64,000 bases of DNA, taken from positions 434,001 through 498,000 of the forward strand of contig NZ_CP159256.1 in NCBI RefSeq assembly GCF_040438645.1, written 5' to 3'. Source of the stretch: Mesorhizobium sp. WSM2240. Its GTDB lineage: Bacteria > Pseudomonadota > Alphaproteobacteria > Rhizobiales > Rhizobiaceae. A program made the position numbers and the translations under genes. Of this stretch, positions 1,622 to 54,855 are shown in pieces. Position 1 is the first letter of the stretch; each line of letters starts with the position of its first letter. A model generated the notes under the pieces. The model worked only from the letters and a program-made list of their open reading frames with translations, was not told the origin of the DNA and ran no database searches.

Positions 1622-2032
1622 TGCCCGCCAACTAGGCAACGCCCCGTTAGTGGCGCGCCAGTTCCTCCGGGATTGCCCCGGTTCTGTTGCCATTGCGCCA
1701 CCCGACGCGAATTTGCGGCTAGTTCTTCGACTTGATTCACTTACTTGCTGAAACTGCTCCCGGCTTCCAGAACTGCCGGTCGGCTACGCGCCTAATGTCG
1801 GCCGTAGAGGTCAGTTTTGCGGTTGCTCGGAAGCCGACATCGCCGACGACTAAGCTGTAAGTCGTCGTCACATTTGCGGAACTTCGGTACCTCAATGTCC
1901 CGCTACAACCACACTGCCGACGTGACACTGGTCCAACGCGAGATTTAGGGATGCTCAAAAGCGTTAGCTCGGTTATCAATGCGCATCCAAAGCTCAAAAT
2001 GCACGGCGAGATTGTTGTTCGACTAGTGATTG
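1622..2032. other. Stretch with no recognisable gene
   Basis: No open frame here has a convincing start or family resemblance. I see no strong terminator or repeat. Confidence 0.4.
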
Positions 2033-2182
2033 TTATCGCGAGTGAAGCGGCTTGGCCGACCATTGCGTCCACGCCACCCTGGAGGCGGCGCGTGCAGTCA
2101 GATCCTCGTACGAGTCACATGCCGTCTCGAAGCGCCGTTTCATGGCGGGCAAGCGTGCAAGTAATACTTGAAGATCGGACAT
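2033..2182 (-). CDS. Possible small hypothetical protein (49 aa)
   Basis: Minus-strand ATG 2182 with a GGAG about 13 bases upstream opens MSDLQVLLARLPAMKRRFE, a helical charged start resembling small rhizobial proteins. The C-terminal third looks out of character, so it may be a truncated remnant. Weak case. Confidence 0.25.
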   Translation of the reverse strand: MSDLQVLLARLPAMKRRFETACDSYEDLTARAASRVAWTQWSAKPLHSR

Positions 2183-2375
2183 GAGGGTCGGGGCTCCCTG
2201 TGTGCAAGTTTGTACAGCTTCATCGCTGCAGCGCTCATTCGCAACGCTGTCGAACCAAAAGCGCAAGGCCGTTTTTTCGGTTCAACTCGCGGCCGCGACT
2301 AGGCTCGGGCATTCGTCTGCATGCACCGAACGCCCGGTCTTCAGGCTTGTCTTTAAAAACTGAATGTGGATTGCT

Positions 2376-2411
2376 GAAGTTACCGAAGTTACCGAAGTTG
2401 CCGAAGTTGGA
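2376..2411 (+). repeat. 9-bp tandem repeat, four units
   Basis: Four consecutive units of GAAGTTACC (third unit GAAGTTGCC, fourth GAAGTTGGA) end inside the ribosome binding site of the downstream lysE-type gene. Copy-number change would move or remodel the 5' leader of that gene. Confidence 0.85.
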
Positions 2412-2422
2412 GGGATTCCAGA

Positions 2423-3049
2423 GTGATCGACCAAGCTGCATTGATTACCTACTCGCTGATCGTCTTGGGGTTTGTCTTCATCCCCGGTCCCGCGACGCTG
2501 CTTACTGTTGCACGCGCAACTACCTCTGGTACGAAGGTTGGCATTGCCACCGGTGCGGGCATCACGGCCGGAGACATCATTCACACTATCATGGCTGTCG
2601 TCGGCATCTCGGCGATTGTAGCGACCTCCGCGACCTTGTTTAGCACAGTGAAATACCTCGGCGCTGCCTATCTGGTTTACCTTGGGTTCAAAGCGATTCT
2701 CGAGAAAGCACCGGTCGATCTTGGGCAGGGCCGGGTCCCGATCACGGCACCGCAGGCGTTTCGACAAGCGATCCTCGCCGAAGTCCTAAATCCAAAGACT
2801 GCACTCTTCTTCTTGGCATTTCTGCCGCAGTTTGTCGTACCCGATAATGGCTATGTCGTCGCACAGCTCACGGTTCTCGGAGTTGTGTTCGCGTTGATCG
2901 GTTTCTTCAGCACAATCGTCTATTCAGTTGTGGCGGGCGGTCTTGGTAACTTCCTGCGGCGCCACCCGATTGTGCTGAAATGGCAGAGCAAGATTGTCGG
3001 TGGCATTTACTGTGCGCTCGGGCTGCGCCTGGCCTTCCAAGAGCGATAA
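2423..3049 (+). CDS. LysE/RhtB family amino-acid exporter
   Basis: 208-residue inner-membrane protein of full family length with about six hydrophobic segments. The hallmark PGPATLLTVARATTSGTKVG near residue 20 matches the P-G-P-x-x-L-x-x-x-x-x-x-x-G signature of LysE/RhtB transporters, which export amino acids or their derivatives by proton antiport. A second conserved block, NPKTALFFLAFLPQF, is present near residue 125. The start is GTG 2423, supported by GGAGG nine bases upstream. Substrate cannot be predicted. It stands alone on the plus strand directly after the 9-bp tandem repeat. Confidence 0.9.
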   Translation: MIDQAALITYSLIVLGFVFIPGPATLLTVARATTSGTKVGIATGAGITAGDIIHTIMAVVGISAIVATSATLFSTVKYLGAAYLVYLGFKAILEKAPVDLGQGRVPITAPQAFRQAILAEVLNPKTALFFLAFLPQFVVPDNGYVVAQLTVLGVVFALIGFFSTIVYSVVAGGLGNFLRRHPIVLKWQSKIVGGIYCALGLRLAFQER

Positions 3050-3164
3050 GCGGACCTTCGCCGGCGGGGCGTGCCCGCATCCTGCTCGACCAAGTGGACG
3101 TGGTGGGCGGCAAAGAACCACCTTTGCGGTAGTCTGCGCCGGGTACCAAGCGCCATCGGCGATC

Positions 3165-3384
3165 TCAGCGGATTGCGAGGTCAACGCCTGCCTTGGCTGA
3201 CAGCGGTCCAACGAAATTCTTGAGCCAGCAGGTCTTCTGCTTGCGCACGAAGGCGAACGCTCGACATTGGCTGCTCGCAGGCAACATAGCAGCCGACGAA
3301 GTTACTGTTGCGCAGCCGCAAATAATCGCCTCCTGCCATGTCGCGACCCGCTGCAATAGTAAAGGTGGAGACGTTCGCATTCAA
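3165..3384 (-). pseudogene. PAN/apple-domain fragment, frameshifted
   Basis: Two minus-strand frames join into one PAN-like sequence: AAGRDMAGGDYLRLRNSNF then CYVACE, followed after a frame change by SQCRAFAFVRKQKTCWLKN and the C-terminus KAGVDLAIR. The spacing of Cys residues and the CRAF/CWLK motifs fit PAN domains, which bind carbohydrate or protein outside the cytoplasm. No signal peptide or upstream half is left. Read as the 3' remnant of a secreted protein gene. Confidence 0.5.
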
Positions 3385-3722
3385 TCAGACGTTCTTCGCC
3401 AATGACCAGAATCCCGTTTTTCGGCCATGCGCATTTCTCTCCTCAAGCGCGATCAGACCGTCCAGATCGTTGCGGGCTCTGGCGATGACCTGCCGAACGT
3501 CACACAATTGCGAGGCATCGCAATCATACGATCGACGCTTCTTGGCCTTCTGCGGGTTCCCGGATCCATTCTGCAGCGCAAGTAGCAACTGATCCCATCG
3601 CTCCAGCGATGGCTTCGGCAGATAAACGGCAAGCGCTTCCGCCACATCGATGAGGTAGCCATGGCTGCTTTCACCAAGGGCGGCCATGATCTGCTCGGGC
3701 AAAAGGTCTGCCTCATCGGGCC
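3385..3722 (-). pseudogene. Hypothetical gene, 5' end lost
   Basis: The minus-strand frame has protein-like sequence from about LRPDEADLLPEQIMAALGES to the stop at 3385, including a basic patch PQKAKKRRSYDCD. Upstream of about 3722 the same frame runs antisense to the epoxide hydrolase remnant, so the true 5' end seems to have been replaced there. Family not recognised. Confidence 0.35.
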
Positions 3723-3728
3723 TCAGCT

Positions 3729-4110
3729 TTCCCTGTTCGAGCTGCTCAACACCGTCGAACCGCTCACGGATCCGACAGCGCATGGGGGGAACCCTGAGGA
3801 TGCTTTCGACTTGGTTCTGCCGACGATGCCGGGCTACGGTGCTTTTCAAGCAAGCCAAAGGGCACGGGTTGGAATCCCGACCGCATCGCTCGCGCCTGGC
3901 CGAACTCATGACCCGCCTCGGCTACACCCACTATGTGGCCCAGGGAGGCGACTGGGGCGCGCCTATCTCCAGCGCGATGGGACGTCAGGCGCCGAAGGGG
4001 TTGCTCGGCATCCATATCAACTTGCCGGCAACAATCCCACCAGACGTGGCCGCTGCGCTCGCCGGCGGGGGCTAGCGCCGGCAGGCCTCAGCAAGAATGA
4101 GCACGCGGCA
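3729..4110 (+). pseudogene. Epoxide hydrolase (microsomal type) remnant
   Basis: Broken alpha/beta hydrolase. One frame reads FELLNTVEPLTDPT and LVLPTMPGYG. A second frame reads RLAELMTRLGYTHYVAQGGD (the nucleophile-elbow region, GGDWGAPI) and GIHINLPATIPP. A third continues as LAPAGLSKNEHAAFY. These are consecutive blocks of EPHX1-type epoxide hydrolases. At least two frame changes and missing ends make it non-functional. Confidence 0.7.
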
Positions 4111-4243
4111 TTCTACGTCGTCGGGAAACAGGCAAACCTTGACTTCGCCAACCCAATCAGAAGGAAGCCTGCTAGACCGGTCGGAACCCTTGCGGCCGCC
4201 TTTCGTTGGGCGTGGTGTAATCCAACATTGGAGTGCAGCAGCG

Positions 4244-4504
4244 ATGGCCAATAATCCAGATACCAATGGCGACGATGGGCTTAGGCGCGAAATAGCTAAC
4301 TTGCGGGCGGTGTTGGCCGAGCGCAAAGACGATTTGGTCGCAGCCGCTTCCCGCGGTGCCCACGCTGTTGTCACGCCTATCAAAGAGAACCCTGGTGTCG
4401 TCAGTTCCGTTTTCCTCCTGGGCGGGCTCGTTGGTTTGCTTCTCGGCTTGGCTATTGGCCAATCGGAACAGCGGTCGCGGCATTGGTACGACAGGTATCG
4501 GTGA
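4244..4504 (+). CDS. DUF883/ElaB-YqjD-like membrane-anchored protein
   Basis: 86 residues. A charged helical N-terminus (GLRREIANLRAVLAERKDDL) is followed by one C-terminal membrane segment (VSSVFLLGGLVGLLLGLAIG) and a short basic tail. This layout matches the ElaB/YqjD/DUF883 group of tail-anchored, stress-linked inner-membrane proteins, some of which bind ribosomes. ATG 4244 has GGAG 12 bases upstream; the open frame extends further back but without an RBS. It lies just downstream of the broken epoxide hydrolase and upstream of two other small membrane-protein genes on the same strand. Confidence 0.65.
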   Translation: MANNPDTNGDDGLRREIANLRAVLAERKDDLVAAASRGAHAVVTPIKENPGVVSSVFLLGGLVGLLLGLAIGQSEQRSRHWYDRYR

Positions 4505-4721
4505 GCCGCGCCTCGCGCACGCTTATGCAGTCAGCCAGCCAAAATTCTGTAGCAGCGATGCAGTCGACGTGCAGGCCGAGGTACGATCACCAGCCACTCC
4601 TGTTGCCTTCTGACCGACCGCGACCGTGAGCGGCGAAGTGTTTCGTCAGTGAAACTGCATACTGTCCTCAGACGTTGTCGACCAACAGATAAGCGTGGGC
4701 TCAAGGAAGAGAGCATCCGAC

Positions 4722-5213
4722 ATGGATTGGAGCGCCATGTTCTTCCAGGACTGGGAAGGCATCGTCCGCACCATCATTGTGGGCTGCATGGCCTATGCAG
4801 CCCTTGTGCTCTTCCTCCGCCTCTCGGGGAAAAGGACGTTGGCGAAGCTAAATGCCTTCGACCTCGTTGTAACCATTGCCTTAGGATCGACCTTGTCGGC
4901 GACGCTTCTTCAGGAATCTGTCGCGCTCGCCGAGGGAGCGATCGCTTTCGCCCTCCTGATCCTCTTGCAGCTCTTCGTCGCGTTCCTATCGGTGCGCTCC
5001 GGCAGGTTTGCAAAGCTCGTGCGCTCCGAACCTGCGCTTCTCGCAAGAGACGGCAGTTTTTGCACTGCCACAATGAGGCAAGAGCGCGTAACGGAAGACG
5101 AAGCGCTGAGCGCCATTCGCGCTTCCGGCGCCGCTGACGTAGCGTCTGTCGACTACGCCATACTGGAAACCGATGGCTCCATCAGCGTCGGGCTGAAGAA
5201 GGCCAGCGACTGA
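4722..5213 (+). CDS. DUF421 (YetF-like) membrane protein
   Basis: 163 residues with about three N-terminal membrane segments (first around IIVGCMAYAALVLFLRL) and the conserved phrase RLSGKRTLAKLNAFDLVVT that marks DUF421. The soluble C-terminal domain (ATMRQERVTEDEALSAIR) is the YetF-type fold. Role unknown; family members are linked to envelope or spore stress. ATG 4722 is chosen because AGGAAGAG lies just upstream and residues match family starts. The stop overlaps the beginning of the DUF202 gene region, so the two are probably co-transcribed. Confidence 0.85.
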   Translation: MDWSAMFFQDWEGIVRTIIVGCMAYAALVLFLRLSGKRTLAKLNAFDLVVTIALGSTLSATLLQESVALAEGAIAFALLILLQLFVAFLSVRSGRFAKLVRSEPALLARDGSFCTATMRQERVTEDEALSAIRASGAADVASVDYAILETDGSISVGLKKASD

Positions 5214-5214
5214 C

Positions 5215-5646
5215 ATGACGATGGCATCCAGCAACGATCGAACGGAGATGGCACAGGATCGCACCGCCTGGGCCGAAGATCGCACCATGCTTGCAAACGA
5301 ACGAACCTTTGCCAGCTGGATGAGGACGGGACTTGCCTCGCTCGCCGTTGCGCTCGGCTTCCAAGCGCTATTCCGTTCGACCGATCCCACATGGTTCGCT
5401 AAGCTCGGCGCCAGTGTCTTCGTCGGACTGGCAATGGTTGTCTTCTGGTCCGCCCTATTGTCGGCATGGAAGGTGTTGAAGCGGCTCGATTCTCACGTCG
5501 CTTCTCCACCGAGTCGCCGTAGGCTACTTCTCATTACAATCTCAGCCACCGCGGGCGCTCTAACGCTTCTGCTGGCGCTGTTGGCTGCTTTAGGTCGTTG
5601 GGGACGGCTGGCGGCTTCCATGGGTACTGGGATATGCTCTATTTGA
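5215..5646 (+). CDS. DUF202 (YidH-like) membrane protein
   Basis: 143 residues. The N-terminus carries the DUF202 signature: EDRTMLANERTFASWMRTGL leading into the first membrane segment, with two more segments at about residues 58-82 and 102-122. YidH-like proteins are small inner-membrane proteins of unknown function. ATG 5215 begins one base after the preceding stop, so translation is probably coupled to the DUF421 gene. Confidence 0.85.
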   Translation: MTMASSNDRTEMAQDRTAWAEDRTMLANERTFASWMRTGLASLAVALGFQALFRSTDPTWFAKLGASVFVGLAMVVFWSALLSAWKVLKRLDSHVASPPSRRRLLLITISATAGALTLLLALLAALGRWGRLAASMGTGICSI

Positions 5647-6084
5647 GCATGATGCAGAGCATCTCGCCGCTTGGAAAGTCGCAGCAGAAGTGCCATTCCA
5701 ATGATGAGCGAGGTGGTCGTTTATCGAACAAGAACCGGGTGCCGCGTCTTCGGCCGGAGGACAACGAACAGGTTCTCCCAGCCCGGATTAACGAGCTGGC
5801 CACTCCGGGGTACCGACGGGCATGGTGCAACGCCGGTTCGTTCACATTTTCGGGCCAGAGAAGCCCGCCGGCGGAACAGCTGGGCATTGCTAGACCAGCA
5901 ACTCTGAGCTGTTCTGCCAGTCCGAGCGCGCAACTGCTCCTCTTTTGCGGGCATGGCGGGATCACCTTGAGCCCGGCGTTAACCTCCTACCTCGCGACGC
6001 GGCGTATGGCTGAGGACAAGAGCTTTGTCACACCCGATCCAGCCGGCAACGTGCTCGCCTCTGGGAGTTCATCGCTGACATGAG
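5647..6084. other. Stretch with no recognisable gene
   Basis: Open frames exist on both strands but none has family resemblance or a good start. It may contain remnants too degraded to name. Confidence 0.35.
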
Positions 6085-6534
6085 TCACGGCTTCTCGGTC
6101 GATGACCTGCCGATCGTGTCGGCCATCCTCGCACCACGCGATCCGAGCGGCTGCGGCTCTCCGGTCGTGGTGTCCTTTGCGGTCTGGTGTTCCAGCTCGG
6201 CGTTGAGTTCGGCTCCAAAGAGCAGGATCATGACGGAAATCCAGACCCAGACCATGAAGCCGATTAGTGCGCCAAGGGTACCGTAGGTCGCGTTGTAGTT
6301 GGCGAAGTTCTCCAGGTAGAAGGAGAACGCCATCGACGAGGCTACCCAAACCACCGTTGCAATTCCGGAGCCCCAAGTGAGCCACCGCCATTGTGGGCGC
6401 TCACGGCTTGGACCAAAGCGGTAGATTAGCGAAATCGCTGTGGCGATAACGACTAGCAGGACTGGCCAGCGCAGCACGTTGACGAGAGTCTCCGCCCACC
6501 GGCCGAGGTTCAGGAACGCGAGCACGGCCGGCAC
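6085..6534 (-). pseudogene. YihY/BrkB family inner-membrane protein, N-terminus missing
   Basis: 149 residues corresponding to the C-terminal half of a BrkB/YihY (formerly RNase BN) protein: VPAVLAFLNL, then RFGPSRERPQWRWLTWGSG, then the conserved ATYGTLGALIGFMVWVWIS membrane block. Full members are about 300 residues with six membrane spans. In frame, an amber stop lies seven codons upstream of the first GTG (6534), and no matching N-terminal half is found upstream, so the gene is 5'-truncated. Any product would be an incomplete membrane protein. Confidence 0.75.
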
Positions 6535-15921: not shown

Positions 15922-16309
15922 GTCATCACGACCTATGCGAAAAGGTTCGCTGGGCGCGGCGACAGAACGCTTACTCATTGCAAATTTTAGGAGTTTCTGA
16001 AATTCGAAAGCCGCGCATCTCTCGCGAGACGTGGCCGTGGGTTTGAGAGCGTGTCCTGCTGCCTGAGAGCGTCGAGGCGGGCCTATTAAGCCTCCCTCCT
16101 TGCTGCAGCACCGAGATGCTGATCAGCGTGGCTGTGCTGCTGCCGGTTGGTCCCTCTCGCGGCAGATCAGCATAACCGGCTAGGCCGGGAGCTTGCCGCG
16201 TAACCCCGAGCTCTAACTTGGAACCGAAGCGCAGAATCTAGTCAGAGTCTGGGCGTTTTCACCTTAAAACGCAAGAGCATGCGCTCTTGTTGTCGGCTGC
16301 ACACAATAT
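15922..16309. other. Structured intergenic region
   Basis: Nested stem ATGCTGATC...GATCAGCAT (about 16111-16170) encloses TGCCG...CGGCA. Two further hairpins follow: GCGTTTT/AAAACGC (16253-16272) and CAAGAGC/GCTCTTG with a 4-base loop (16272-16289). TCTAGTCAG occurs twice, near 16239 and 16310. No open frame is supported; an RNA gene or the remains of a mobile element are possible. Confidence 0.4.
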
Positions 16310-16651
16310 CTAGTCAGTGAGGTTAGGGATTTCGGAACGAAGATCCTTGGCTGATGGTGAAAGAGTCACCTTGGGCGATCGAACGCGCCGCCCGGGCGGT
16401 TGGGCACCTTTGGGCGCTTTCGAGGTGTAGACGGTGCTCGGCGGTGTAGTCGGCGAGTCCACCGCGAATATTCCCGCGCCCAGATAGATCGCTGCCCCGA
16501 TGAAAAGCCAAATCGCCGACGCTACGGACCAGCGTTTGATCCGGCGCCGAACGCGCGCCAAACGCGCCCAGCGCGATATTCGTTTGCGCAGTCGATTTTC
16601 CTCGACAGCGGCCCGCCGTTGGGCGCGCCGCTCCATATGTGACGTGTTCAT
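16310..16651 (-). CDS. Single-pass membrane protein (113 aa), unknown
   Basis: From ATG 16651: a very basic N-terminus (ERRAQRRAAVEENRLRKRIS), one membrane segment (VASAIWLFIGAAIYLGAGIF), then a Thr/Pro-rich basic tail. The positive-inside rule places the N-terminus in the cytoplasm. The start is chosen over an upstream one because the upstream residues lack any signal. Not recognised. Confidence 0.5.
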   Translation of the reverse strand: MNTSHMERRAQRRAAVEENRLRKRISRWARLARVRRRIKRWSVASAIWLFIGAAIYLGAGIFAVDSPTTPPSTVYTSKAPKGAQPPGRRVRSPKVTLSPSAKDLRSEIPNLTD

Positions 16652-16939
16652 TCGCCACGGCCCCCCTAAAACACGTCTGCACGGTACGCCGGTTTGATTT
16701 CGAAAAATCAAAGATTCCAAAAAAAACTGTCAATGGGGCCACGCGGGTGGGCCACATGCCGAAAGCCGAGAAGATCAGCCTACCGCCCATTCCAAGGCTC
16801 ACAGGTAACTCCATCCCAGTCAGCATCGTGCGATGGCCAATAGCTTGGCTGACCTCGACGAGCGGGCGCAACACCCACGGCCCGTGCCATGGTGCAGCTC
16901 AGCTGCCGACGCTAAGTGCTGGAGCGCGTCAAAGGGTGA
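16652..16939. other. Stretch with no recognisable gene
   Basis: Lies between a membrane-protein gene and the 3' end of the cyclase pseudogene; may include cyclase debris. Confidence 0.3.
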
Positions 16940-17909
16940 GTTAATCCGAACCTTGGACGGCGGCGCGTACAAGACCACCGCAAGCATCACAAGAATGGCG
17001 ATGGCCAAGGCGACATCCCTTGCGAACTGCTTTCGGCTGTAGCGCACCGGCCTCGGCCGCATGCGCCGCGACATCGGTCAGTTCCAGCGTGACGCGGATG
17101 CGCTGGCCCGTCCGTTGCGCCGCCCCTTGGAGGACATAACGAACGCCATTTCGCGTCCCGCCTGCTCGGCTGGCAGATCCGCGTCGCAATATCTCTTGGC
17201 CGTGCCCGCGCCAATCAGGAACAGTCCCGAAGCATGGATGAGGGCTGCCTGGATGTCGAGCTGAAGGCCGTCCGCCAAGTAGCTGTGCTCCGGTTCGCCT
17301 CTCAGATTGGCAAACGGCCGAATGGCGACCGAGGGTTTCTTTGGAATTGGCAGGACCTCGCCGGTCCAGGCGGCGGGTTGCGGCCCCCGCAGGCTACCGG
17401 GAGGGACGATACGATGTGCATGAACCGCGTCGGCAATGTTTTGAGCGCTCGCGCTCCGAGGTTCTCGAAATGGAAATTGACGCGGCTTCTCACCTCCCTG
17501 AAAACAGCGCCTGAAAAACAAATCATTCCCGGCTCGGCGATGCCTTCCGGCCGCGACGCTATGTTTACACCATCGCCGAAAATGTCGTGGCTTTCGACGA
17601 CAACCTCATCCGATTGGTGCCGATGCGGAATTCGATCCGTTCATTCTCGGGAACGTCGCGGTTGCGATTGACCATACCGCACTGTATCGCAACGGCGCAT
17701 TCCACCGCTGCTACCATGCTCGTGAACTCGACCAACACTCCATCGCCGGTCGTCTTGGCTATGTGCCCAGCGTGCTCCGCGATATTCGGATCGATAAGAT
17801 CGTCTCCGTGGGCCTTGAGATCGGCTATGGACTTCGTCTCATTTCGCCCGGCGAGCCGGCTGAAGCCGACCACGTCGGCGACAAGAATGGTCGTTAGCTT
17901 ACGTTCCAT
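16940..17909 (-). pseudogene. Class III adenylate cyclase with TolB-like domain, broken
   Basis: ATG 17909 opens MERKLTTILVADVVGFSRLA, the cyclase homology domain, with AKTTGDGVLVEFTSMVAAVE. It loses frame near 17600. Other frames carry EVRSRVNFHFENLGARALK, then KPSVAIRPFANLRGEPEHSY and LADGLQLDIQAALIHASGLF (TolB-like domain), then VRYVLQGAAQRTGQRIRVTL. This order is the usual cyclase-TolB-TPR layout of rhizobial adenylate cyclases; the TPR part is missing. At least three frame breaks. Confidence 0.8.
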
Positions 17910-18210
17910 GGGCGCTCCAATCCTTCGGAGCGGATCGATCGCCGCTGTGGCTGACCTGTTAGACCTTGTGGGAGTGCGCGGCCAAAGTCCAGTGTGCCGA
18001 TGCGGTCCCGCAGGGTGCCGACCTGACCGATCACCATAAGTCGGTGGCGCCCACAGCTCTCCGTGTCGGCCAATGTCTGGTTTTTGATGCAACCAAGTCG
18101 GTCCCAAAGTCACGCCGTACGGCAGAGAACCACCACCCAATCCCCCGCTTCCAGTCGACGTGCTGAAGCACGTCTACCTCGCCTGCGAACGCAAAGCCGC
18201 AAATGGTGCC

Positions 18211-18400
18211 ATGATGAACCTGCGCGCGCTCATGGAGAACACCTCTGATGCGGATCTTTTGCGCGAGATAATCGGCTTTGCCGCCGAGCAGTTGATGGAG
18301 ATGAAGGTGGGTGGCGCAATCGGCGCCGCCAATGGAGAGAAGAACCCCGCTACGGACGGCCCAGCGCAACGGTTGTCGAGGTAGGGGACTGGGAGACGCG
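18211..18400 (+). pseudogene. IS256-family transposase N-terminal fragment
   Basis: MMNLRALMENTSDADLLREI and GFAAEQLMEMKVGGAIGAAN, then in another frame AQRNGCRGRGLGDAC, match the start of IS256-type transposases (LRALMEKSADADLLREMIGF, QRNGYRDRDWETR). It breaks off after about 60 codons. Confidence 0.8.
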
Positions 18401-18439
18401 TGCCAGCGAACGGAAACGGCTTGGGAATGTGCGCCCGCT

Positions 18440-19996
18440 CTATCGAACAAGATAGGTCTCAACCGTGCCGATGCCCCGCAGATCCAACGCGCAACGCGGC
18501 TCGAGCGTCCAATGACCGTGAAGGGCGCGCTTGGTTGCCTCCGAAATCTGCATGCGATCGGCAACTCCCTGAGATTCGAGGCGGCTCGCAATATTCACGG
18601 TTTCTCCCCACACGTCGTAGACGAAACGATGCCGGCCGATCAGCCCGGCGACGACTGGCCCCGAATGAATCCCGATGCGGATCCGAAATCGGTCGTTGTC
18701 GGAGGCCAAATCCCGCAATGATTCCAGCATGGACTTGCCCAGAGCCACGATCCTGTCGGCGTGATCTGCTGAAGGCTCCGGAATCCCGCAGGCGGCCATA
18801 TAGGCATCTCCAATCGTCTTGATCTTCTCCACACGATGCTCCTGTGTCAGGAGATCAAACTTGCTGAACGTTCGGTCCAGCCGCCTGACTAGATCGGACG
18901 GCGGCAGCCTTGCCGCAATAGGCGAGAAGCCGACGATATCTGCAAACAGAATGGAAACCTCTTCGAAGCGGTCGGCGATGATCTCCTCGCCGCCCTGCAA
19001 TCGGGCAACGATCTGGTCGGGAAGGATCGCGTGAATAAGCGTATCGGCACGCCGCTTCTCCGCTTCGATCTGTTGGAGATAGCGGTGCTCGCGATCAAGC
19101 CAGCGCTTCCTCTCGAGGGTGGAGTTAATGCGCGCGCGCAGCAGAATCGGATTGAAGGGTTTCGTTAGATAGTCATCGGCTCCAGCCTCGATGCACCGGG
19201 CCACCGCCGCGACTTCGCTCAAGCCCGATATCATGATCACCGGGACGTGCCGCCATCGGTTCTCCGCCTTCAGCCGCGAGAGAATCTCGATGCCGTTCAT
19301 GTCCGGCATCAATATATCGAGCAGAATGAGATCGAACTCGTCTTCGGTCAGTCTCGCGAGCGCGGATAGGCCGGAATCGGCGGTGACGACGCGATGGCCG
19401 TCACGCCGCAGGCGGCGGGAGAGAAGATCACGATTGCTGGCGACGTCGTCGACGACGAGAATCCTGCCGCCCTGATCGGACCACGCATCACGCTCGGCCT
19501 TGAACAGGAGCCGTTCAAGTTCCGCCGCGTCGATTTCGGTTCGATCCCTTGGCTGAAGCGTCTCGATCGCTTCCCCGCGCGAGAGACCGGCGATGGCGTC
19601 AACCTGCTTCAAAAGCTCGGCCGCCGCCGCAAGCATCACACGAAGATCCTCCTTCAGCTGGTGCAAATCTCCAGCATCTTCGAGGAGCATCTCCGAATAG
19701 CCAATGATGGCATTGAGCGGCGTGCGCAGATCGTGGCGGAGCCGAGCCTCCGCCTCGACTTCCCTCACGTCCGGGAAACCAACCTTGCCGTCGATCAGGC
19801 GATCGATGAGGCCGTTCAGTTGCCTTGCGGCGACGCCGATCCGCTCCAGGTCGGTCTCCAGATTGGTCAAACCGAGATCCCGCGCCTGCTCGAGTAGCAA
19901 TTCCTGAAAACCCAGGATCGCCCGCGCCGGACCGGCCAGCCGCTGCGTCACATGGGCGGCGATGGCGTGGCGCTGGAATTCGTTCCCGGCAATCAT
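18440..19996 (-). CDS. HisKA-REC-adenylate cyclase
   Basis: 518 residues, cytoplasmic. Residues 10-65 are a degenerate and 85-140 a clear HisKA helix pair ([20 protein letters not shown], His88), but no ATPase domain follows. Residues 177-292 form a receiver domain with phospho-acceptor Asp227 (LILLDILMPDMNG). From about 330 a class III cyclase domain carries both metal Asp (SILFADIVGF, KTIGDAYM), an adenine-selecting Lys in EKIKTIGD and the late YDVWGETVNIASRLE. It should make cAMP under phosphorelay control. Last gene of a four-gene operon; 25 bases separate it from the regulator upstream. No clear Shine-Dalgarno before ATG 19996. Confidence 0.93.
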   Translation of the reverse strand: MIAGNEFQRHAIAAHVTQRLAGPARAILGFQELLLEQARDLGLTNLETDLERIGVAARQLNGLIDRLIDGKVGFPDVREVEAEARLRHDLRTPLNAIIGYSEMLLEDAGDLHQLKEDLRVMLAAAAELLKQVDAIAGLSRGEAIETLQPRDRTEIDAAELERLLFKAERDAWSDQGGRILVVDDVASNRDLLSRRLRRDGHRVVTADSGLSALARLTEDEFDLILLDILMPDMNGIEILSRLKAENRWRHVPVIMISGLSEVAAVARCIEAGADDYLTKPFNPILLRARINSTLERKRWLDREHRYLQQIEAEKRRADTLIHAILPDQIVARLQGGEEIIADRFEEVSILFADIVGFSPIAARLPPSDLVRRLDRTFSKFDLLTQEHRVEKIKTIGDAYMAACGIPEPSADHADRIVALGKSMLESLRDLASDNDRFRIRIGIHSGPVVAGLIGRHRFVYDVWGETVNIASRLESQGVADRMQISEATKRALHGHWTLEPRCALDLRGIGTVETYLVR

Positions 19997-20021
19997 TTTT
20001 ACAAACGTTTACAAACGCCGC

Positions 20022-20393
20022 TTAATGAGGTGTCGTAAGCAGCCGCTCGATTTTCCGGACAAGCTGCGGCAGGTCGACCGGCTTGCTGTCATAGTCATTG
20101 CAGCCGGCCTCGAGCGCCATGTCCCGATCGCTCGCCATTGCGTGCGCAGTGAGCGCGATTATGGGAATCCTTGACGTATCCGGGTTGGCCTTGATCCGTC
20201 GCGTCGCCTCCCAGCCATCCATTACCGGCAGGCTCATGTCCATAAGGATCAGATCCGGATTTTCCGAAGCGGCAAGCTCGACGCCGGCTTTTCCATTTTC
20301 CGCAGTTAGTACCTCAAAGCCGCGACGAGACAACCGTCGCAAAAGCATGTCGCGGTTCATTTCATTGTCTTCCACCAGAAGGATTCTTGTCAT
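20022..20393 (-). CDS. Single-domain response regulator (CheY/DivK-like)
   Basis: 123 residues, one receiver domain. MTRILLVEDNEMNRDMLLRR carries the acidic pocket; the acceptor Asp lies in LILMDMSLPVMDG, the switch Thr in PIIALTAHAM, and the Lys in DYDSKPVDLPQL (unusual S before KP is normal for this class). ATG 20393 has AAGGAAAC upstream and is preferred to the longer open frame. It sits between the hybrid kinase and the cyclase and probably shuttles phosphate between them. Confidence 0.93.
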   Translation of the reverse strand: MTRILLVEDNEMNRDMLLRRLSRRGFEVLTAENGKAGVELAASENPDLILMDMSLPVMDGWEATRRIKANPDTSRIPIIALTAHAMASDRDMALEAGCNDYDSKPVDLPQLVRKIERLLTTPH

Positions 20394-20418
20394 TTTCGGT
20401 TTCCTTCGGCCATGCCCC

Positions 20419-23181
20419 TCAAACGTCAGTGACGGTCGTACCGGCGGTTTCACGTGATGCTATCTGGCGCTCGAGGGCTTCGACCAGTTGGGACCTGCTG
20501 TTTGCGCCCTTGTTTACGACAGCGACCGCCCGGTCGCGCAGCCATCTCAGCTCGTTTGCCGAGAGGTCCTTCGAAGTGACCACCACGACCGGAATGTTCT
20601 GCAGCTCCGGAATACTCTGCATCTCATGGAGCGTTTGGAATCCGTCCATTTCCGGCATCAGAATGTCGAGCAGGACCAGGCGCGGCAGAAGCCGCTTCAT
20701 CAGTTCGAGACCGCGGATGCCGTCACCTGCCTCGTGGACGGTCCAATCCCTCTTCACGAGAATGCGCCGGAGGAACTCACGGGAAGCCCGATCGTCATCG
20801 ATGACCAGCACGTCGCGGTTGCCGCCCCCGCAAGCCTCTATCGTCCGGATAAGCTTGTCGGTGTCGATGGGTTTTGTCAGATATTCGACGGCGCCGAGCG
20901 ATAGGCCAAGTTCACGATCCGCTAGGATCGTCGCCAGGATCACAGGAATCGTGCATAGTTCCGGATCACTCTTCAACGTGCGCAGCACCGACCAGCCGTC
21001 CTGATGCGGCATGATGATGTCGAGAATAATTGCGGCGGGCCGATGCTCCCGAGCAGCGGCTATTCCTTCCGCTCCGCTTGCTGCCTCCATTGACGCAAGT
21101 CCCGCTTCCGCGAGGGCTTTTGCAATCAGGTTCCGGGCAGCCGGTTCGTCGTCGATGATGAGTACGGTGCGACCCGGCTGAACGATCGGCGACGGCTCGG
21201 CCGTCCTAGGGTCTTCGGTCTCTCGCCTGCATTGCGCCGGCACTTTCATCGTGAAAACTGAGCCTTTTCCGACTTGGCTTTCGACGGTGACCACACCGCC
21301 TATCATGCGGCTGAAGCTGCGGGTGATGCTCAAGCCCAGTCCCGTGCCGCCGTAGTTCCGGGTGGTGGAAGCATCGGCCTGCGTGAAGGCATTGAAGAGT
21401 CGTCCCTGCTGTTCCGGCGTCATGCCGATGCCGGTATCGGAAACCTTAAACACTAGCCAATCGCCGTCGGCTCGCCCCTCACGCCGAACCGCAAGAGTTA
21501 CCCGGCCGCCATGGGTGAATTTGGCCGCGTTGCTGAGCAGGTTGAATAGATTCTGGCGCAGCTTGGTCTGGTCGGAGTGCATCTCCCCAAGATCGCGCTG
21601 GAGGTCCTGTACGAACTCGTTCCGGTTCTTCGCCATCAGCGGTGTTACAGTGGCCTTCACGTCATTGAGCAACTCGACGACGTCGAAGGTTTCGAGGAAT
21701 ATCTCCATCTTGTTCGCCTCGATCTTTGACAGGTCGAGGATGTCGTTGATGAGCGACAGGAGATGCCGGCCGGCAGACGCTATTTTTTCAAGGTCCTGGA
21801 CGAGTTCCTCGTCGTCCTTGTGGTCGCGTGCCTCCTCTATCAGCATCTCGCTATAGCCGATGATCGCGTTCAGTGGCGTGCGCAATTCGTGACTCATGGA
21901 GGCGAGGAACCGACTTTTGGCCTCGCTTGCCGATTCGGCGTTGCTCTTGGCCCGCTCGAGATCGACTTGCCTCTCCTTGAGTTCGGTGATGTCTGTGTAG
22001 ACAGCGACCGTTCCGCCGTCGGGGATCTTGCGCTTGCTGATGCGGACCCATTTGTCGCCAAACCGCTTTTCGTCAACGTGGCCCGCAGGGTCCCTGTGAA
22101 CGCGCAGACGGGCCCCGATCCATTCTTCCGGCGTCTTGCCTTCGAGATCTACTTGCCCTCTTGCCAGATCCTGCTCCAGGATTTCGCGGAAGCTCTTGCC
22201 CCGTAGCGCGTTCGGCTTGTGGCTGGTGAAGATTTCGCAGTATTTGCTGTTGGCAATCAGGATTTTGTCATCCGGATCATAGAGGACGAACCCATCGGAA
22301 ATTGCCTCGAGCGCCGCAGCGATCGTCCGCCTCTGCCGCTCTGCCTCGTCTTCGAGCCTTTTCCTTTCGACCGCGTTTTGCCGGAAAAGCGAAAGCGTTC
22401 TCGCCATTGCTCCGAATTCGTCCCCGCCCTCCTGGGGTATCTCGACATCATAATGTCCATCCGTGAGTTCTCCGATGACGCGATTGAGACGCCGGAGCGG
22501 ACCGACGATCGAGCGCAGGACGAGAAGCGTGAGAAGCGAGCCGATCAGGACTACGATACCCACCAGGATGGCAGCGGCTGCGGCCGTCTTTTGCGTTTGC
22601 GCTACGACCACGTTTCGGGCGGCCTCCGCATCGGCCTTTACCTGCTCGACTAGCCTGTTGATATCCGCATCGACTTTGCCGCTGTGGGTGCGTGCCTTTG
22701 CCAGCAAAGTGTTGCCGACAATGCGATTGTCTTGGGTATAGCTGTCCGTTGCCTGCAGCGCCGTTTCGACATAGGCGTCGATTTGCGTGCGGATTTCCTC
22801 GACCGCGTCGGGCGAGTGCTTCGCAAGGCGCTCCAGCTGGACCTGCAGGCGTTCGCGGGCCTGCTCGGCGTTGCGCTGTGAATTCATCAGCAGGCTGACG
22901 GAGAGATCGGTCAGCCAGTATCGCAGATCTCCGAAGGCGACATGCGCTGCGGCCGCTGATGCTGCGCGGTCGAACAGCTCCCTAGTGTCGTCCATGCGTT
23001 CGGCGCTGCGATAGAGCGCCTGGGTGAGAAAAGCGGAAGACAGAACAAGGCTGATGAGGCCGGCCGCGGTCAGCGCAGCCACGCGGGCAGAGATCGGCAG
23101 ATTGCCGAGCCGGCTGGCGGGCCTCTTGGCCGGTGTCGGAACAGGCTCGATCGACCGCAGCTGCTGCCCTAGCGCGCTCAT
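20419..23181 (-). CDS. Membrane hybrid histidine kinase with two receiver domains
   Basis: 920 residues from ATG 23181, which overlaps the stop of the heme-protein gene (ATGA). Order: membrane segment 34-57, helical periplasmic sensor about 60-198, membrane segment 200-223, HAMP 224-277, PAS 283-400 ([20 protein letters not shown]), HisKA with His431 ([18 protein letters not shown]), HATPase with [10 protein letters not shown] and [12 protein letters not shown] boxes, then two receivers with Asp in [12 protein letters not shown] and [13 protein letters not shown] coupled periplasmic heme partner suggests redox or gas input. Output is expected through the next two genes. Confidence 0.95.
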
Positions 23182-23936
23182 TTGAACAAGACGATGCTGA
23201 TCGCACCGCCCAGATCGCCCGCTTTGCCCCCCTCTTTCGGATAGCCGGTGACGTCGATTTCGCCCTTCGGTGCGCCGTGACAGGAAAGACAGGACTCCGT
23301 ATAATATTCTGGCAGCAGCATCCGGAAAGCAGGGCGGCCGTTCACCGTTGTCGCTTCCGTATAGATATTCCCCTTCGGCCTCTTCGGATCGGAGAAGACG
23401 TCCTCGATAACCCGTGCCTCCCAAGCATCGGGAAGCGACTTGCGGTTCCGCACCAGGACCTCCGGCGCGGTTACGCGGACCAACGCCTCGTTTCCAACTT
23501 TGGCGGCGAATTTCTCGTTCATCAGGCGCGCGAAAACGGCTGGGACAAAACCCTTAAACCCGATGCCGGGGCGGTTTATGTCGTCCTGCTGCTCGTCGAC
23601 GACCTCACGCATTGCCTCGACCTGTGCCTGGAGCAGCTTGCGGTCGCGCTCCGCCAGGTCGTCGGAGATCAATTCACGGCCGGTGCGCTTGGCATAGAGG
23701 GCAATCGCCTCCGCCGTGAAACGCTCGCCATCGAGGTTCTTGTCTCCCACGGCTGGATCATTGATGAGCGACTGATAATTCGAAAGAACGCTCCGGGCTG
23801 CCCTGAGCAATTCCGCCAGCCGCGTACCGGTCGCTACATCGGCGGCCTCTTGAGCCGCCACCGAAGACGAGAGGATCATGCAACCTGATAACACTGCGAA
23901 AATAAATTTTCGCGCCAGAGCTGTACGTGTCTCCAT
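23178..23936 (-). CDS. Periplasmic c-type-heme sensor protein, Tll0287-like (DUF3365)
   Basis: 252 residues with a signal peptide ([20 protein letters not shown], cleavage near 28). The body matches the Tll0287-like/DUF3365 domain, and [15 protein letters not shown] at 214-228 holds a CxxCH heme-attachment motif (216-220). [20 protein letters not shown] is the usual family ending. In related sensors this domain is fused to kinases or cyclases; here it is a separate exported protein translated just ahead of, and overlapping, the kinase. ATG 23936 follows GAGGTAAAG. Needs the cytochrome c maturation system. Confidence 0.92.
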
Positions 23937-24055
23937 TTTTCTTTACCTCGGGGAGGAAGCGCAAGCCGGAAGCATAACACAGGAAGAACAATGGAAGGAG
24001 TCATCTCCGGGCATAGCTTGGATATAGTCTGTTCCCTGGCCGAGTGAACGCAACA

Positions 24056-24370
24056 TCAGGCGAGCCGGCGGCGTTCAGCAGCGTCAGAATCTTTGCTCCT
24101 GGCCTGTCTTCGAGCGCCCTTCCCGCCGCGAAGATGGGGCGGGCGGTATCTGGAGAATTGGTCTTGGTCGGTCACGGACCGCCGTTTAACGATCGAACGG
24201 TCCGGCCCCGGCATTATCGATGCGCCAGATGATGTCGATGGCGTCAGGCCGATATCCTTGAGCTGCGCATCCGAGAGCTGCCGCATCATCAGGGCGTCGC
24301 GGCGCGTCCGGCGCCTATTGCGCATCGCCGCGGCTGCGGCCAGCACCGTCATTGCAAAGGTCTTTCTCAT
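24056..24370 (-). CDS. DUF1127-domain protein with unusual tail
   Basis: 104 residues. RRRTRRDALMMRQLSDAQLK followed by DIGLTPS is the DUF1127 motif found in short Arg-rich proteins that act in phosphate uptake, stress and RNA turnover in Agrobacterium and relatives. Normally the protein ends soon after DIGL; here about 55 extra basic residues follow (FSRYRPPHLRGGKGARRQAR), which could be a frame-shifted extension. ATG 24370 is chosen; ATG 24385 is possible but lacks an RBS. Confidence 0.7.
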   Translation of the reverse strand: MRKTFAMTVLAAAAAMRNRRRTRRDALMMRQLSDAQLKDIGLTPSTSSGASIMPGPDRSIVKRRSVTDQDQFSRYRPPHLRGGKGARRQARSKDSDAAERRRLA

Positions 24371-24408
24371 TGGTCTTTCTTTCATGGTCGACCGACGGAA
24401 TGCGGCGC

Positions 24409-25263
24409 TCAGCGCCGCACTTCGAAGATGAGGTTGAATGGGGTTTCCGCGGCTCGGCGGAAATGCGTGAAGTCCGCCTTGCGGCACACCTCGGCCAGGC
24501 GCGCCTGTCCCGCCTGCGCCTCGAGCACCAAGTTGCCGCCCTCGGAAATGGCGTGCGCGCAGCAGATCATGATCGACGCCGAGTAGTAGAGTTGCGCCAC
24601 CGGCGAGAGATTGTCCTTGACGTGGTCGTGAGCGAAAGACTCCACGAGCAGCACCGTGCCGCCAGGCGCCAGCACCTCGGCCGCATGCGAGCGGCGACGA
24701 CTGGTTCGCCGAGATCGTCGAGAATGTCGAAGAAGCAGATCAGGCCGTACTGTCCGTTCGGATAGTCATCGGCCCTCGCACTCGCGAAGTCGATCCGGTC
24801 GGAGACGCCCCGCCGCCGCCGCATTCCGCCTCGCCTCGTCAAGTGAGGCGGCATGCGGGTCGAAGCCGTGGAAGCGCGAGTTCGGAAACGCCTGGGCCGT
24901 GAGCGCCGCCGAATGGCCATGCCCGCAGCCGACATCGGCGACTCCTATGCCCGCCTCGAGCCGCCCAATGACGCCTTCCAGCGCCAGCAACCATTGCGGC
25001 ACCAGGCTGGCGCGGTAGCCATTGCGGCAGAAAGCCGCCGAGCCGCAGGCGAACCGCCCGTCATGCTCGCCCCAGCGACGCCGTTGCCGGTGCGGAACGC
25101 ATTCAAGGCCTTCGCCTCGTTGAACCACATCGACGCCAGCATATTCCATGCGTGCGGTAATTTGGGCGACAATGAGGGCACCCAACCGGAATCGCCGATT
25201 TGGCGACTTCTTACGTGTCGGCCGCGTAGGCAGCCGAATGATCCCCGCACCTGGGGATAACAC
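24409..25263 (-). pseudogene. SAM-dependent methyltransferase, multiply frameshifted
   Basis: The pieces join into one class I methyltransferase. N-terminal part: ASMWFNEAKALNAFRTGNGV; middle: VPQWLLALEGVIGRLEAGIG with the SAM-binding VADVGCGHGHSAALTAQAFP and GFDPHAASLDEARRNAA; then SDRIDFASARADDYPNGQYG in another frame; C-terminal part: LAPGGTVLLVESFAHDHVKD to LIFEVRR. At least four frame changes, so inactive. The family includes rhizobial enzymes with an N-terminal winged helix. Confidence 0.8.
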
Positions 25264-25293
25264 GCTGGCTGCGGTGGCCTGGCGGGCGGCTCC

Positions 25294-25728
25294 CTACTGG
25301 ATGACGCCGCGCAGCTCGAGCCTGGTGCATTTGCCGATCACGAGATGAGGGGTATTGGCGCGACTGTCGCCCGCATTCGTGTAGCCGATGCCGTAGTTTT
25401 CCTGAAACCGAAGGGTCTTCGACGAGAAGGTGAATCCGTTCGCCAGACCGCCGCAGATAAGCAAAAGGGTAGAATCGGATCTTCGTTGCAGAGGACAGTA
25501 GTGGCTGGGCGTCTGCTCCCCGATCTGGTTGACGGTATACTCGTCGGGCGAGCCGGATGGCTGCAGTACGAAAATTTTGTCCGTGAGATCGGGCCGGCTC
25601 ACCGCCCATCGCCCATTTAGCCAATCAAATCCGGTGGCGAGTTGACCAACGCACAGGAATGACTCAGCGCGCGCTCCAGTAACTTCACAAACAAGCAGAA
25701 GACACGCGGCGAGGATCCGGTGTTTCAT
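25294..25728 (-). CDS. Secreted protein of unknown function (144 aa)
   Basis: A clean signal peptide (MKHRILAACLLLVCEVTGAR, cleaved after ARA near 21) leads to a 120-residue periplasmic or secreted domain with four Cys (FLCVGQL, HYCPLQRR, LLICGGL, GKCTRLEL), likely two disulfides. WLNGRWAVSRPDLTDKIFVL looks beta-rich. Monocistronic between two decayed genes. Not recognised. Confidence 0.75.
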   Translation of the reverse strand: MKHRILAACLLLVCEVTGARAESFLCVGQLATGFDWLNGRWAVSRPDLTDKIFVLQPSGSPDEYTVNQIGEQTPSHYCPLQRRSDSTLLLICGGLANGFTFSSKTLRFQENYGIGYTNAGDSRANTPHLVIGKCTRLELRGVIQ

Positions 25729-25986
25729 GAAATCAATAGACCGGTTGACGTTATTCTTGCACCCTCAAGCCTGGTTGGACATCATCGGCCACGAAGGCTA
25801 ATCAAAAATTAATCAACCACGTCTTTGCCGGTCGTGCAATTCGGCGCAGGCGTCTTCACGTCACGCGTTGGCCTCAGTCACACCGTGCCGCCAGCGCGGA
25901 GGCAATGGCTGAAACGGGCGGAAGGAGTGGAAACGGAAATGCGGCGACACGGGCTAGGCCGTCCGAGCGCCGCCGTCGAGGCCGCG

Positions 25987-26559
25987 TTACCTGTAAACGC
26001 CGGGTGCGATCTCTTCAGCGATTACCTCGAACCGGGCCAGCCTCGATGCACCAAAGCTCGTGGAAAGCGCATCGGTCGCGTCGCGGCCCGTCGCCATCAA
26101 TATCCTTCCAATCCGAGGTTTATTGTGGCGGGCATCGAAGGTGAACCAATGTCCGCCGAGATAGACTTCGAACCAGGCGCTGAAATCCATCGGGTCCGGC
26201 ACCGGCGGCAACCCGATGTCTCCGAGGTAGCCCGTGCAGTAGCGGGCTGGAATGTTCATGCAACGGCACAGTGTGATTGCGAGGTGCGCGAAATCGCGGC
26301 ACACACCGGTCTTGTCGGTATATCCGCCGTGCGCCGTCCTTAAAGGATCGGCATTCTGGTAGTTGAACGCGATGTGATTGTGGACGAAATCGCGTGTTGG
26401 CAAAGTTTGCCCGAAATCGCCGAGACGATCGGTGTCGCAATAGCGGCTGCCGAGCAGGAAGACGAGCACCTCATCCGGCATAAGCAAATCATATGACCCG
26501 ACCACCGTCCTCGCCTGGGTGGACGTCGTCCGCGCCATCCTGTCAGGATGCGTTCCCAA
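25987..26559 (-). CDS. Transglutaminase-like protein, N-terminally truncated copy
   Basis: Second copy of the gene at position 1, inverted. The core is present: LVFLLGSRYCDTDRLGDFGQ, catalytic Cys in DKTGVCRDFAHLAITLCRCM, then PARYCTGYLGDIG, DFSAWFEVYLGG and FDARHN. Compared with family proteins of about 270 residues, the N-terminal domain is missing; only hints (FRPSDLVVPEQLKAAGHLFG) lie upstream near 26560-26625 with breaks. A short internal deletion removes the usual segment between TDRL and DFVH. Ends APGVYR. Likely a decayed protease or peptide-processing paralogue; activity doubtful. Confidence 0.7.
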   Translation of the reverse strand: MGTHPDRMARTTSTQARTVVGSYDLLMPDEVLVFLLGSRYCDTDRLGDFGQTLPTRDFVHNHIAFNYQNADPLRTAHGGYTDKTGVCRDFAHLAITLCRCMNIPARYCTGYLGDIGLPPVPDPMDFSAWFEVYLGGHWFTFDARHNKPRIGRILMATGRDATDALSTSFGASRLARFEVIAEEIAPGVYR

Positions 26560-27620: not shown

Positions 27621-28310
27621 CTATTTAATGAGCAGCAGCCCGCGCTTCTTGTCCCCGTCGATTGTGTCCACAGCTGAATACAAACGATCGGCTTCAATGA
27701 GCCAAGGCCCGAAGTCCTCGTTTACGTCCAGAACGAACACAAGATCCTCGTCTTCCAGATAGCCACCGATTGGAGAATGGTGGCCAACCCCTGCGCCAAA
27801 AATCCTCTCCCGGCTGAAATTTACGATGTATCGGCTGCCGGGATGGTTGGCACGTTTCATGTGCTCCCGGAACTCGTCAGCCGTCATGTCGCGCACAACG
27901 GACACATTACGGTGCGTATGTCCTCGGGCCACTTCGGCGAGCTCGTCCAGCGTGAGACCCATGATGCAAAAGCCCGTCGAACACAATCCGGTCCCGTCCA
28001 GGACCTCACCCTCCGTAATCTCCTCCTCGCCGATTGATCGAAAGGCATTGGCAAGGCTCGCTGGGCCGCAGCGCGAGCCGTTCGACTGCCAGGAGACGTT
28101 CGGCTTGAAGGTTGTTGCCACGGGAAGCTGCCACGCGCGATCGATCAACTCAGGTATGCGGATAACCGAGGATTGAATCGCCTCCTCGGGGACATTGGAA
28201 GGCCCGCCGGCATTCAGCGCGACAACGGCGAGCAGGCCGAGGCCGCCGATCACACCGAATACGCGATGACGGATCATTGCGCGGGCCCAAAGCACAGGAT
28301 GCTCATACAA
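27621..28310 (-). CDS. Exported phytochelatin synthase family protein
   Basis: 229 residues. An N-terminal signal or anchor (RVFGVIGGLGLLAVVALNAG) is followed by the phytochelatin synthase catalytic domain: Cys81 in QSNGSRCGPASLANAFRSIG, His177 in GAGVGHHSPIGGYLED and Asp195 in FVLDVNEDFGPWLIEADRLY, the papain-like triad with the same His-Asp spacing (18) as plant enzymes. Bacterial one-domain members mainly cleave glutathione to gamma-Glu-Cys and handle metals poorly. The membrane or periplasmic location is notable. Start could also be ATG 28277; neither has a strong RBS. Confidence 0.9.
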   Translation of the reverse strand: MYEHPVLWARAMIRHRVFGVIGGLGLLAVVALNAGGPSNVPEEAIQSSVIRIPELIDRAWQLPVATTFKPNVSWQSNGSRCGPASLANAFRSIGEEEITEGEVLDGTGLCSTGFCIMGLTLDELAEVARGHTHRNVSVVRDMTADEFREHMKRANHPGSRYIVNFSRERIFGAGVGHHSPIGGYLEDEDLVFVLDVNEDFGPWLIEADRLYSAVDTIDGDKKRGLLLIK

Positions 28311-45500: not shown

Positions 45501-45625
45501 AGTTTGTCGTGGTCGGTGATCCGATGGTCCATGAGATCGTCATAAGTCCCGTGTCCTTCGATCACCTTGCAAACGCGTTGCAGCCCTTCGCGATGGATTT
45601 CCAGCACTTTCGCGACGTCTGCCAT
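42560..45625 (-). CDS. Giant multi-domain glycosyltransferase with C-terminal GT-D domain
   Basis: 1021 residues. Residues 1-460 resemble GT-B capsule transferases (polysialyl/CDP-glycerol type): LVLANDHSPVRVALSMIMKG, ILIKEHPGAARQLGHQ, VGNSSVAIELLHRGVPVYQN. A basic linker (RRRSMKGRFRARLKGSAKRG) follows, then a helical middle part of unknown fold. From about 765 the GT-D domain (DUF1792-like) has the metal motif DxE in FSMIRLSDGEGYLF (789-795) and the classic end VAGGIIGKIFIGRARAMGAV, ALDLGHVVDDW. It probably adds two different sugars, or one sugar plus a chain link. ATG 45625 has GGAAGAG upstream. Between the GT2 and GT4 genes of the same operon. Confidence 0.88.
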   Translation of the reverse strand: MADVAKVLEIHREGLQRVCKVIEGHGTYDDLMDHRITDHDKLFFGKDVDPYQKSKRAAAQFEKKFKSRSYKIILPEFHGFTCDGNTINNIREFEFFERICSSKGITVLKNNYSGNTRISIRDFSRVQRDAAEAIVSDVTSFYLGCPAITASLVHQQIMYSRSFFSFLLSFSRTGVVKPAALVLANDHSPVRVALSMIMKGLGVPRIYLQHAEVTMNFPPLDFEYSVLRNQKSRDTYEAIGSVAGRVFVIPRYPEPFARERLVRPRGRAVTVVIYPTSRIVVAELQRLLIKLGSNSAVAKILIKEHPGAARQLGHQIQIAGVEIVQTVPEEDHIAIVGNSSVAIELLHRGVPVYQNFDFDPVGRDYYGFVRSGLTFEVKLAELSSPFWRPYDADDRWLNAFVEWDASANANYLDDQAQFVEEMARLAANSRTDMPPKRRRSMKGRFRARLKGSAKRGVIRLVNANKKLSSRAANFLLSRTSRAANSISITTDRLGRFLLANTDIEISTPIWRTPSRTTPQTTGRAREIPFEEFVEYTLTHLSTPADWLRMNEQADAFSPRDLIAALEAMFQSRRPALNAIFEGFRSWPSGSPVGTWVYLKRTEWGNFVVDPAELEAMSDFVYGYEDDYTTRFLLEQSLLTTILRSGTNDQLDRFWLNASSVKKDTLPTNRRIEVLRRLRGIPGREAEAQHMLEEFARQASDFELLKFSNTEYLDGRPVEGWDHRHAEHRFLQVAPRTLSREFEAHLKPTYDALRSRMELMNLRIRPSEAEYFWRLANRALDEKTPFSMIRLSDGEGYLFPDRRHFLQADVANRERHWWGTELPTELRSEIISEARQAIAEADVVGVPAIYRFIRDHSESSRSLMQSLQGRGLIEVLAGVVGVVSPSALITEDKVNVALFSDPATLLPLVEAAHKVVIVSSVVPENLPSTFNSARKLETITIPTHHKTMLNESYSKGSQALPFLYRSILNNIDQTVVPGDLVLVAGGIIGKIFIGRARAMGAVALDLGHVVDDWIHPALPSIR

Positions 45626-45664
45626 GAGGGTATCTCTTCCGGGATCGATCACGCCAGCACCAGA

Positions 45665-46582: not shown

Positions 46583-46586
46583 CTGT

Positions 46587-47369: not shown

Positions 47370-47371
47370 CG

Positions 47372-49553: not shown

Positions 49554-49561
49554 GGAATCCT

Positions 49562-54842: not shown

Positions 54843-54855
54843 GGTCGAAATCATA

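Follow-up and report, generated by a model that had tools for sequence, protein, structure and literature searches.

Does a run of four adjacent genes in Mesorhizobium sp. WSM2240 carry a signal from a periplasmic heme protein to the synthesis of cAMP? The genes lie in a window of 64,000 nucleotides, the whole stretch of DNA analyzed here, which is part of a contig of 746,578 bases in a 6.7-Mb genome. All four are on the minus strand, and the layout was confirmed as A (23178..23936, 252 amino acids [aa]), B (20419..23181, 920 aa), C (20022..20393, 123 aa), and D (18440..19996, 518 aa). The stop codon of A overlaps the start codon of B in an ATGA, with the ATG of B at 23181; a longer TTG start of B in the list of open reading frames is unnecessary. 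B and C are separated by 25 bases, as are C and D. The original prediction of a Tll0287-like protein with a CxxCH motif overlapping the start of a double-receiver hybrid kinase, with a single-domain regulator behind it, was borne out. It missed that A is paired with a particular periplasmic domain in B and that D contains a tandem DHp. Among protein relatives with a name, the closest belong to Mesorhizobium and Sinorhizobium. An Rfam scan of positions 16000 to 26000 returned no match, promoter and terminator signals were no denser than in shuffled sequence, and NCBIfam gave zero models for A and, among the matches listed, none above the cut-off for B, C, or D. Elsewhere in the window, we found a phytochelatin synthase-like protein (PF05023, E value of 1.7e-25; 27621-28310, minus strand) and, at 42560-56085, matches to GT-D-like, acetyltransferase, and O-antigen ligase (Wzy_C) proteins that suggest a surface polysaccharide region.

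Gene A encodes a stand-alone sCache_heme (DUF3365/Tll0287-like) protein that matches PF11845 with an E value of 1.6e-19 (71.2 bits, cut-off of 24.1). A heme-c motif, CLSCH, occupies residues 216 to 220, and its C216, C219, and H220 are invariant among 19 aligned relatives. The N terminus carries a signal sequence, judged by eye, past which there is no Cys outside the motif. Based on these features, A is predicted to be an exported, periplasmic heme-c protein. An LSGC near the N terminus made a lipoprotein a candidate, but its Cys is missing from several relatives, and this reading was set aside for that reason. Searches of PDB sequences with A or with the A alignment found no family member; Tll0287 (5b82) was reached only via an unlinked relative of A.

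The product of gene B is a hybrid histidine kinase in which a periplasmic four-helix bundle between two transmembrane segments is followed by HAMP, PAS_7, HisKA, HATPase_c, and two receiver domains (REC1 and REC2), with intact phosphorylation sites at His431 (HisKA), Asp721 (REC1), and Asp839 (REC2). Its sensor region (22560..23100, minus strand) is predicted to form a helical bundle like those of TorS/LytS-type sensors. Only three Foldseek matches of the sensor model passed 1e-3, all to NarQ, and the TorS and LytS sensor domains were among the top structural matches; four-helix bundles resemble many proteins. The invariant residues F83, Y88, W89, D92, S96, Y148, R153, G156, and N157 are placed by the model close to what is predicted to be the end of the bundle farthest from the membrane.

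This sensor domain does not occur apart from A in the genomes searched. Used alone as a query against the 297 genomes of the order sample, it was found at 19 places in 19 genomes, and all 19, which belong to related lineages and are not independent events, immediately follow an independently found DUF3365 match on the same strand. The pairing is strict. Nine further loci have B-C or B-C-D with a B-type kinase that lacks the sensor domain (L002, L007, L009, L013, L015, L016, L138, L157, and L158), and no A is visible at any of them; at two, L015 and L016, fewer than 130 bases of sequence lie upstream of B, where A could not have shown. By linkage and fold, A and the periplasmic domain of B appear to behave as one split receptor, in which A, once exported and supplied with heme c, would dock on the bundle at the end away from the membrane. 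A could instead be a heme-delivery or cytochrome-like accessory that merely shares the operon. By its motif it would be a soluble heme-c protein, and some stand-alone relatives occur in redox-gene neighborhoods (described below), both of which would suit such a role, yet A keeps strictly to one type of sensor domain and was not seen where the B sensor differs. We consider an accessory role quite improbable and prefer the split receptor.

The heme ligands bear on what this receptor would sense. Cluster 1 of the sCache_heme proteins comprises stand-alone proteins with Cys/His heme, in which the axial Cys lies ∼83 residues before CxxCH, and Cluster 2 comprises NO sensors fused to a signaling module in one chain. 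A has no Cys at the place of the axial Cys (scored at 75 to 92 residues before the motif) and, as a separate protein with the signaling module in B, is not a fusion. The axial Cys is absent from all 24 linked proteins (A and 23 relatives linked to the sensor domain of B) and from the 22 transmembrane or fused DUF3365 proteins read. Among stand-alone proteins of the order sample that are not linked, it is present in 29 of 43 readable sequences and absent from 14, one of which (L194) ends soon after the motif; one more protein, L111, contains unread letters. An initial count of 27 of 29 with the Cys came from a profile of A-like proteins that missed other stand-alone members. The rule that loss of the axial Cys marks kinase linkage was dropped because the 14 unlinked proteins lack it as well. 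The axial Cys of an unlinked relative aligns with a Cys of Tll0287 (5b82). In a tree that included 12 of the 14 and carried a long-branch warning, the linked A proteins formed one clade (99/98), the Cys-bearing unlinked proteins another (90/76), and the Cys-less unlinked proteins a separate one. A thus probably belongs to a separate clade whose heme has an open site, as judged from sequence. The missing Cys alone does not mean NO sensing, since Cys-less unlinked proteins exist and leave it undecided between NO and redox.

At least one neighbor was scanned for 7 of the 14 unlinked Cys-less loci. Six adjoin a gene for an NAD(P)H-type oxidoreductase, a multiheme cytochrome c, or a globin (L187, positions 1640-6315; L188; L155; L191; L142; and L141), and the scanned neighbors of L193 include none of these. 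The neighborhood of this stand-alone clade is possibly a redox or NO-handling cluster. Such surroundings suit redox or NO chemistry better than signaling and count against the mechanism that we propose, and the 14 Cys-less proteins lowered our estimates for NO, for the mechanism as a whole, and for the more novel combination given below while raising those for the redox and accessory alternatives.

A 2026 preprint (PMC12889525) assigns redox roles to stand-alone sCache_heme members and reports that every protein tested there reacted with oxygen to give superoxide. The tested stand-alone member, which is Cys/His ligated, releases NO fast, and a fused signaling member without the axial Cys has an NO koff of ∼6e-4 per second. 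The split receptor would hold equally if its signal were the redox state of the A heme, set by electron transfer with a periplasmic partner, and not a gas. The redox roles and superoxide formation reported in the preprint argue for this, as do the oxidoreductase, multiheme cytochrome c, and globin genes beside the second Cys-less clade. However, the ligation of the stand-alone protein tested there is one that A lacks, and the neighbor test found no cytochrome or oxidoreductase gene conserved beside the A-B block. We regard a redox signal as somewhat unlikely and favor NO only slightly. With NO or redox as input, heme occupancy or redox state at a sixth site that has no Cys would shift the balance of B between kinase and phosphatase.

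From B onward, the residues for phosphotransfer are in place. His431, Asp721, Asp839, and the receiver Lys residues of B are invariant across the window, the 23 linked loci, and 9 other loci, as are Asp52, Thr82, and Lys104 of the single-domain receiver C. His431 would phosphorylate the receivers of B itself, C, or both.

D had been described as a HisKA-REC-cyclase protein. The receiver and cyclase stand, and the HisKA portion proved to be two DHp repeats without an ATPase domain: Pfam finds HisKA, receiver, and Guanylate_cyc domains and no HATPase_c. In the tandem (residues 3 to 138; 19583..19990, minus strand), repeat 1 has Gln18 at the place of the phospho-His and repeat 2 has His88. The repeats are 40% and 48% identical to the DHp of B. 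All 28 D relatives keep at least one phospho-His, usually the second, and the two that have lost it (L016 and L025) keep the first. In the D alignment, all 116 rows have His88 and Thr92, with Asp or Glu at residue 89 throughout. In D of L130, repeat 1 bears a His at the site that is Gln or Glu in near relatives, such that both repeats bear His. The tandem is modeled as four helices in one chain (pTM of 0.74), whose best structural match is a single-chain ROP bundle; the sequence points to DHp ancestry. Foldseek gave no match under 1e-3, and the 50 structural matches listed include no HPt or DHp chain, which excludes nothing. A DHp His without a working ATPase domain is the arrangement of DHp phosphotransferases of the PhyT, Spo0B, and ChpT kind, and the N terminus of D is perhaps a home-made HPt. 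Phosphoryl groups would pass from a receiver, with C as the favored shuttle, to His88, the tandem acting as an HPt-like relay, and on to Asp227 in the D receiver, which would gate the cyclase.

The tandem might take no part in phosphotransfer. B or its receivers could control the D receiver directly, with the DHp repeats as a docking or dimerization surface (for example, for phosphorylated C) or as a partner of B in a heterodimer. A precedent for docking is DivK, which binds to the DHp domains of kinases, and the likeness of the repeats to the DHp of B fits this idea. At L147, L013, and L015, D lacks the DHp and stands beside the same kinase and C, indicating that the DHp is not always needed. 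Yet a bare docking surface needs no His, and it would explain neither the conservation of His88, Thr92, and the acidic residue 89 nor the first His kept by the two relatives without the second. Control without relay through the tandem seems doubtful to us, and we retain the relay through His88 as the preferred path.

The output domain has the features of a class III adenylate cyclase. Asp227 of the receiver is invariant in 116 rows, and so are Asp353, Lys393, Asp397, Asp461, Asn468, and Arg472 of the cyclase (116/116). We take these to be the two metal-binding Asp, the adenine-type Lys and Asp, and the catalytic Asn and Arg, the Lys and Asp pair presumably marking use of ATP. The relay may raise or lower cAMP. 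A giant D fusion in two relatives was rejected as an artifact of incomplete sequence. Downstream of D (16310-18140, minus strand), short frames resemble by eye a frame-broken class III cyclase with a different tail; Pfam found no match in two pieces of them.

The four-gene block recurs in several genera and families, as the original prediction had proposed to check, so the lack of conservation that would have spoken against that prediction did not materialize. The region is found in 67 plasmid records, all from Sinorhizobium and each with at least 80% query coverage, and the block is present on pSymB of Sinorhizobium meliloti 1021. At a threshold of E at most 1e-90, a D ortholog occurs in 13 of 297 genomes of the order sample and 12 of 247 of the family sample (DUF3365 occurs in 97 and 54, respectively), giving 24 D genomes overall, with our own counted in both sets. 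By coordinates, 20 of the 24 have a same-strand DUF3365 gene <5 kb upstream, one has its A-B and C-D split between two contigs (L130 and L131), and three (G238, G381, and G509) have no DUF3365 match. At the locus level, A-B-C-D was confirmed in Rhizobium, Phyllobacterium, Sinorhizobium, and six families, with a partial D sequence in two relatives. In the neighbor test, some of the frames flanking the block have matches at other loci (of these, the two named, both at L125, are ABC-transporter ATP-binding genes), and no fifth gene is conserved. The recurrence of the block without a conserved fifth gene suggests that it is more than chance.

Both ends of the block are exchanged. At the loci without the B sensor domain, C is sometimes reordered or inverted. 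Pfam scans of six of these kinases found dCache below the curated cut-off in L009 and L138, CHASE8 in L016, PAS in L002 and L007, and PAS with a sub-threshold GAF in L013. On the output side, A-B-C occurs without D in the retrieved stretches of L143, L144, and L159; with a REC-cyclase that lacks the DHp at L147; and, with no cyclase, beside a convergent REC-SpoIIE (PP2C-type) gene near C at L145 (4161-5459), L146 (9974-11611), and L160 (2388-3827), which suggests an alternative output. Judging by these swaps of domains and genes, the kinase and the lone receiver are probably the core, and A with the B sensor is one interchangeable input.

The proposed circuit from sensing through a phosphorelay to cAMP holds in part: because the relay and cyclase residues checked are intact, it is the natural reading of this locus, but cAMP is not the sole output behind A-B-C. 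The parts of the cassette seem to carry marks of joint evolution. We put the chances that the cassette couples a periplasmic heme-c signal to cAMP by a phosphorelay as evenly balanced. The full combination is more tentative, and we lean against it without dismissing it: a split receptor in the periplasm that uses heme to sense NO or redox, together with a new kind of HPt derived from a duplicated kinase DHp hairpin, with one copy usually His-less, in which a single chain mimics the DHp dimer and is fused in cis to the receiver and cyclase that it feeds.

Each part has known counterparts. H-NOX or NosP proteins are separate heme NO sensors that act in trans on an adjacent histidine kinase. They are cytoplasmic heme b proteins, whereas A, likewise separate from its kinase, is predicted to be periplasmic with heme c. 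CyaC-type cyanobacterial receiver/kinase adenylate cyclases place a class III cyclase under two-component control in one fused protein; the genes here are separate, one of them encodes a lone receiver, and the tandem DHp has no ATPase domain. Partners of the TorT, XylFII, and LuxP type are ligand-binding proteins of another fold than Cache, in contrast to A, a heme-c Cache protein. TorT/TorS, XylFII/LytS, and LuxP/LuxQ (PMC6321045) likewise combine a separate periplasmic protein with a membrane kinase. A resembles the sCache_heme proteins of PMC12889525 in Pfam family and CxxCH and resembles the fused signaling member in lacking the axial Cys, but it is stand-alone and yet tied to a kinase; the preprint places members that stand alone among redox proteins, and its main text does not contain the word "operon." In Sphingomonas melonis (PMC5898713), SdrG-PhyT-PhyR runs from a single-domain regulator through a DHp phosphotransferase to an output regulator, as proposed here, but PhyT, which belongs to the HRxxN kind and has a degenerate ATPase domain, is a membrane protein in its own right, whereas D has a HisKA-type tandem fused to its output. 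The expectation that no such four-gene system had been described agreed with our search of titles and abstract starts, which mostly did not extend to subscription papers and in which neither the layout nor a tandem-DHp phosphotransferase appeared. The parts are of known types; as far as these searches reach, the split arrangement of the heme receptor and the cyclase with a tandem DHp are variants not described before.

The tandem of D is a possible case of an HPt-like domain that evolved from a duplicated kinase hairpin. There is a strain of S. meliloti that lacks every one of the 28 annotated class III cyclase genes (PMC13001267). With this strain and the block on pSymB of S. meliloti 1021, the cassette is open to early experiment. 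Rhizobia meet NO in nodules, and the cassette is a possible route by which extracellular NO or redox state could set cAMP in these bacteria.
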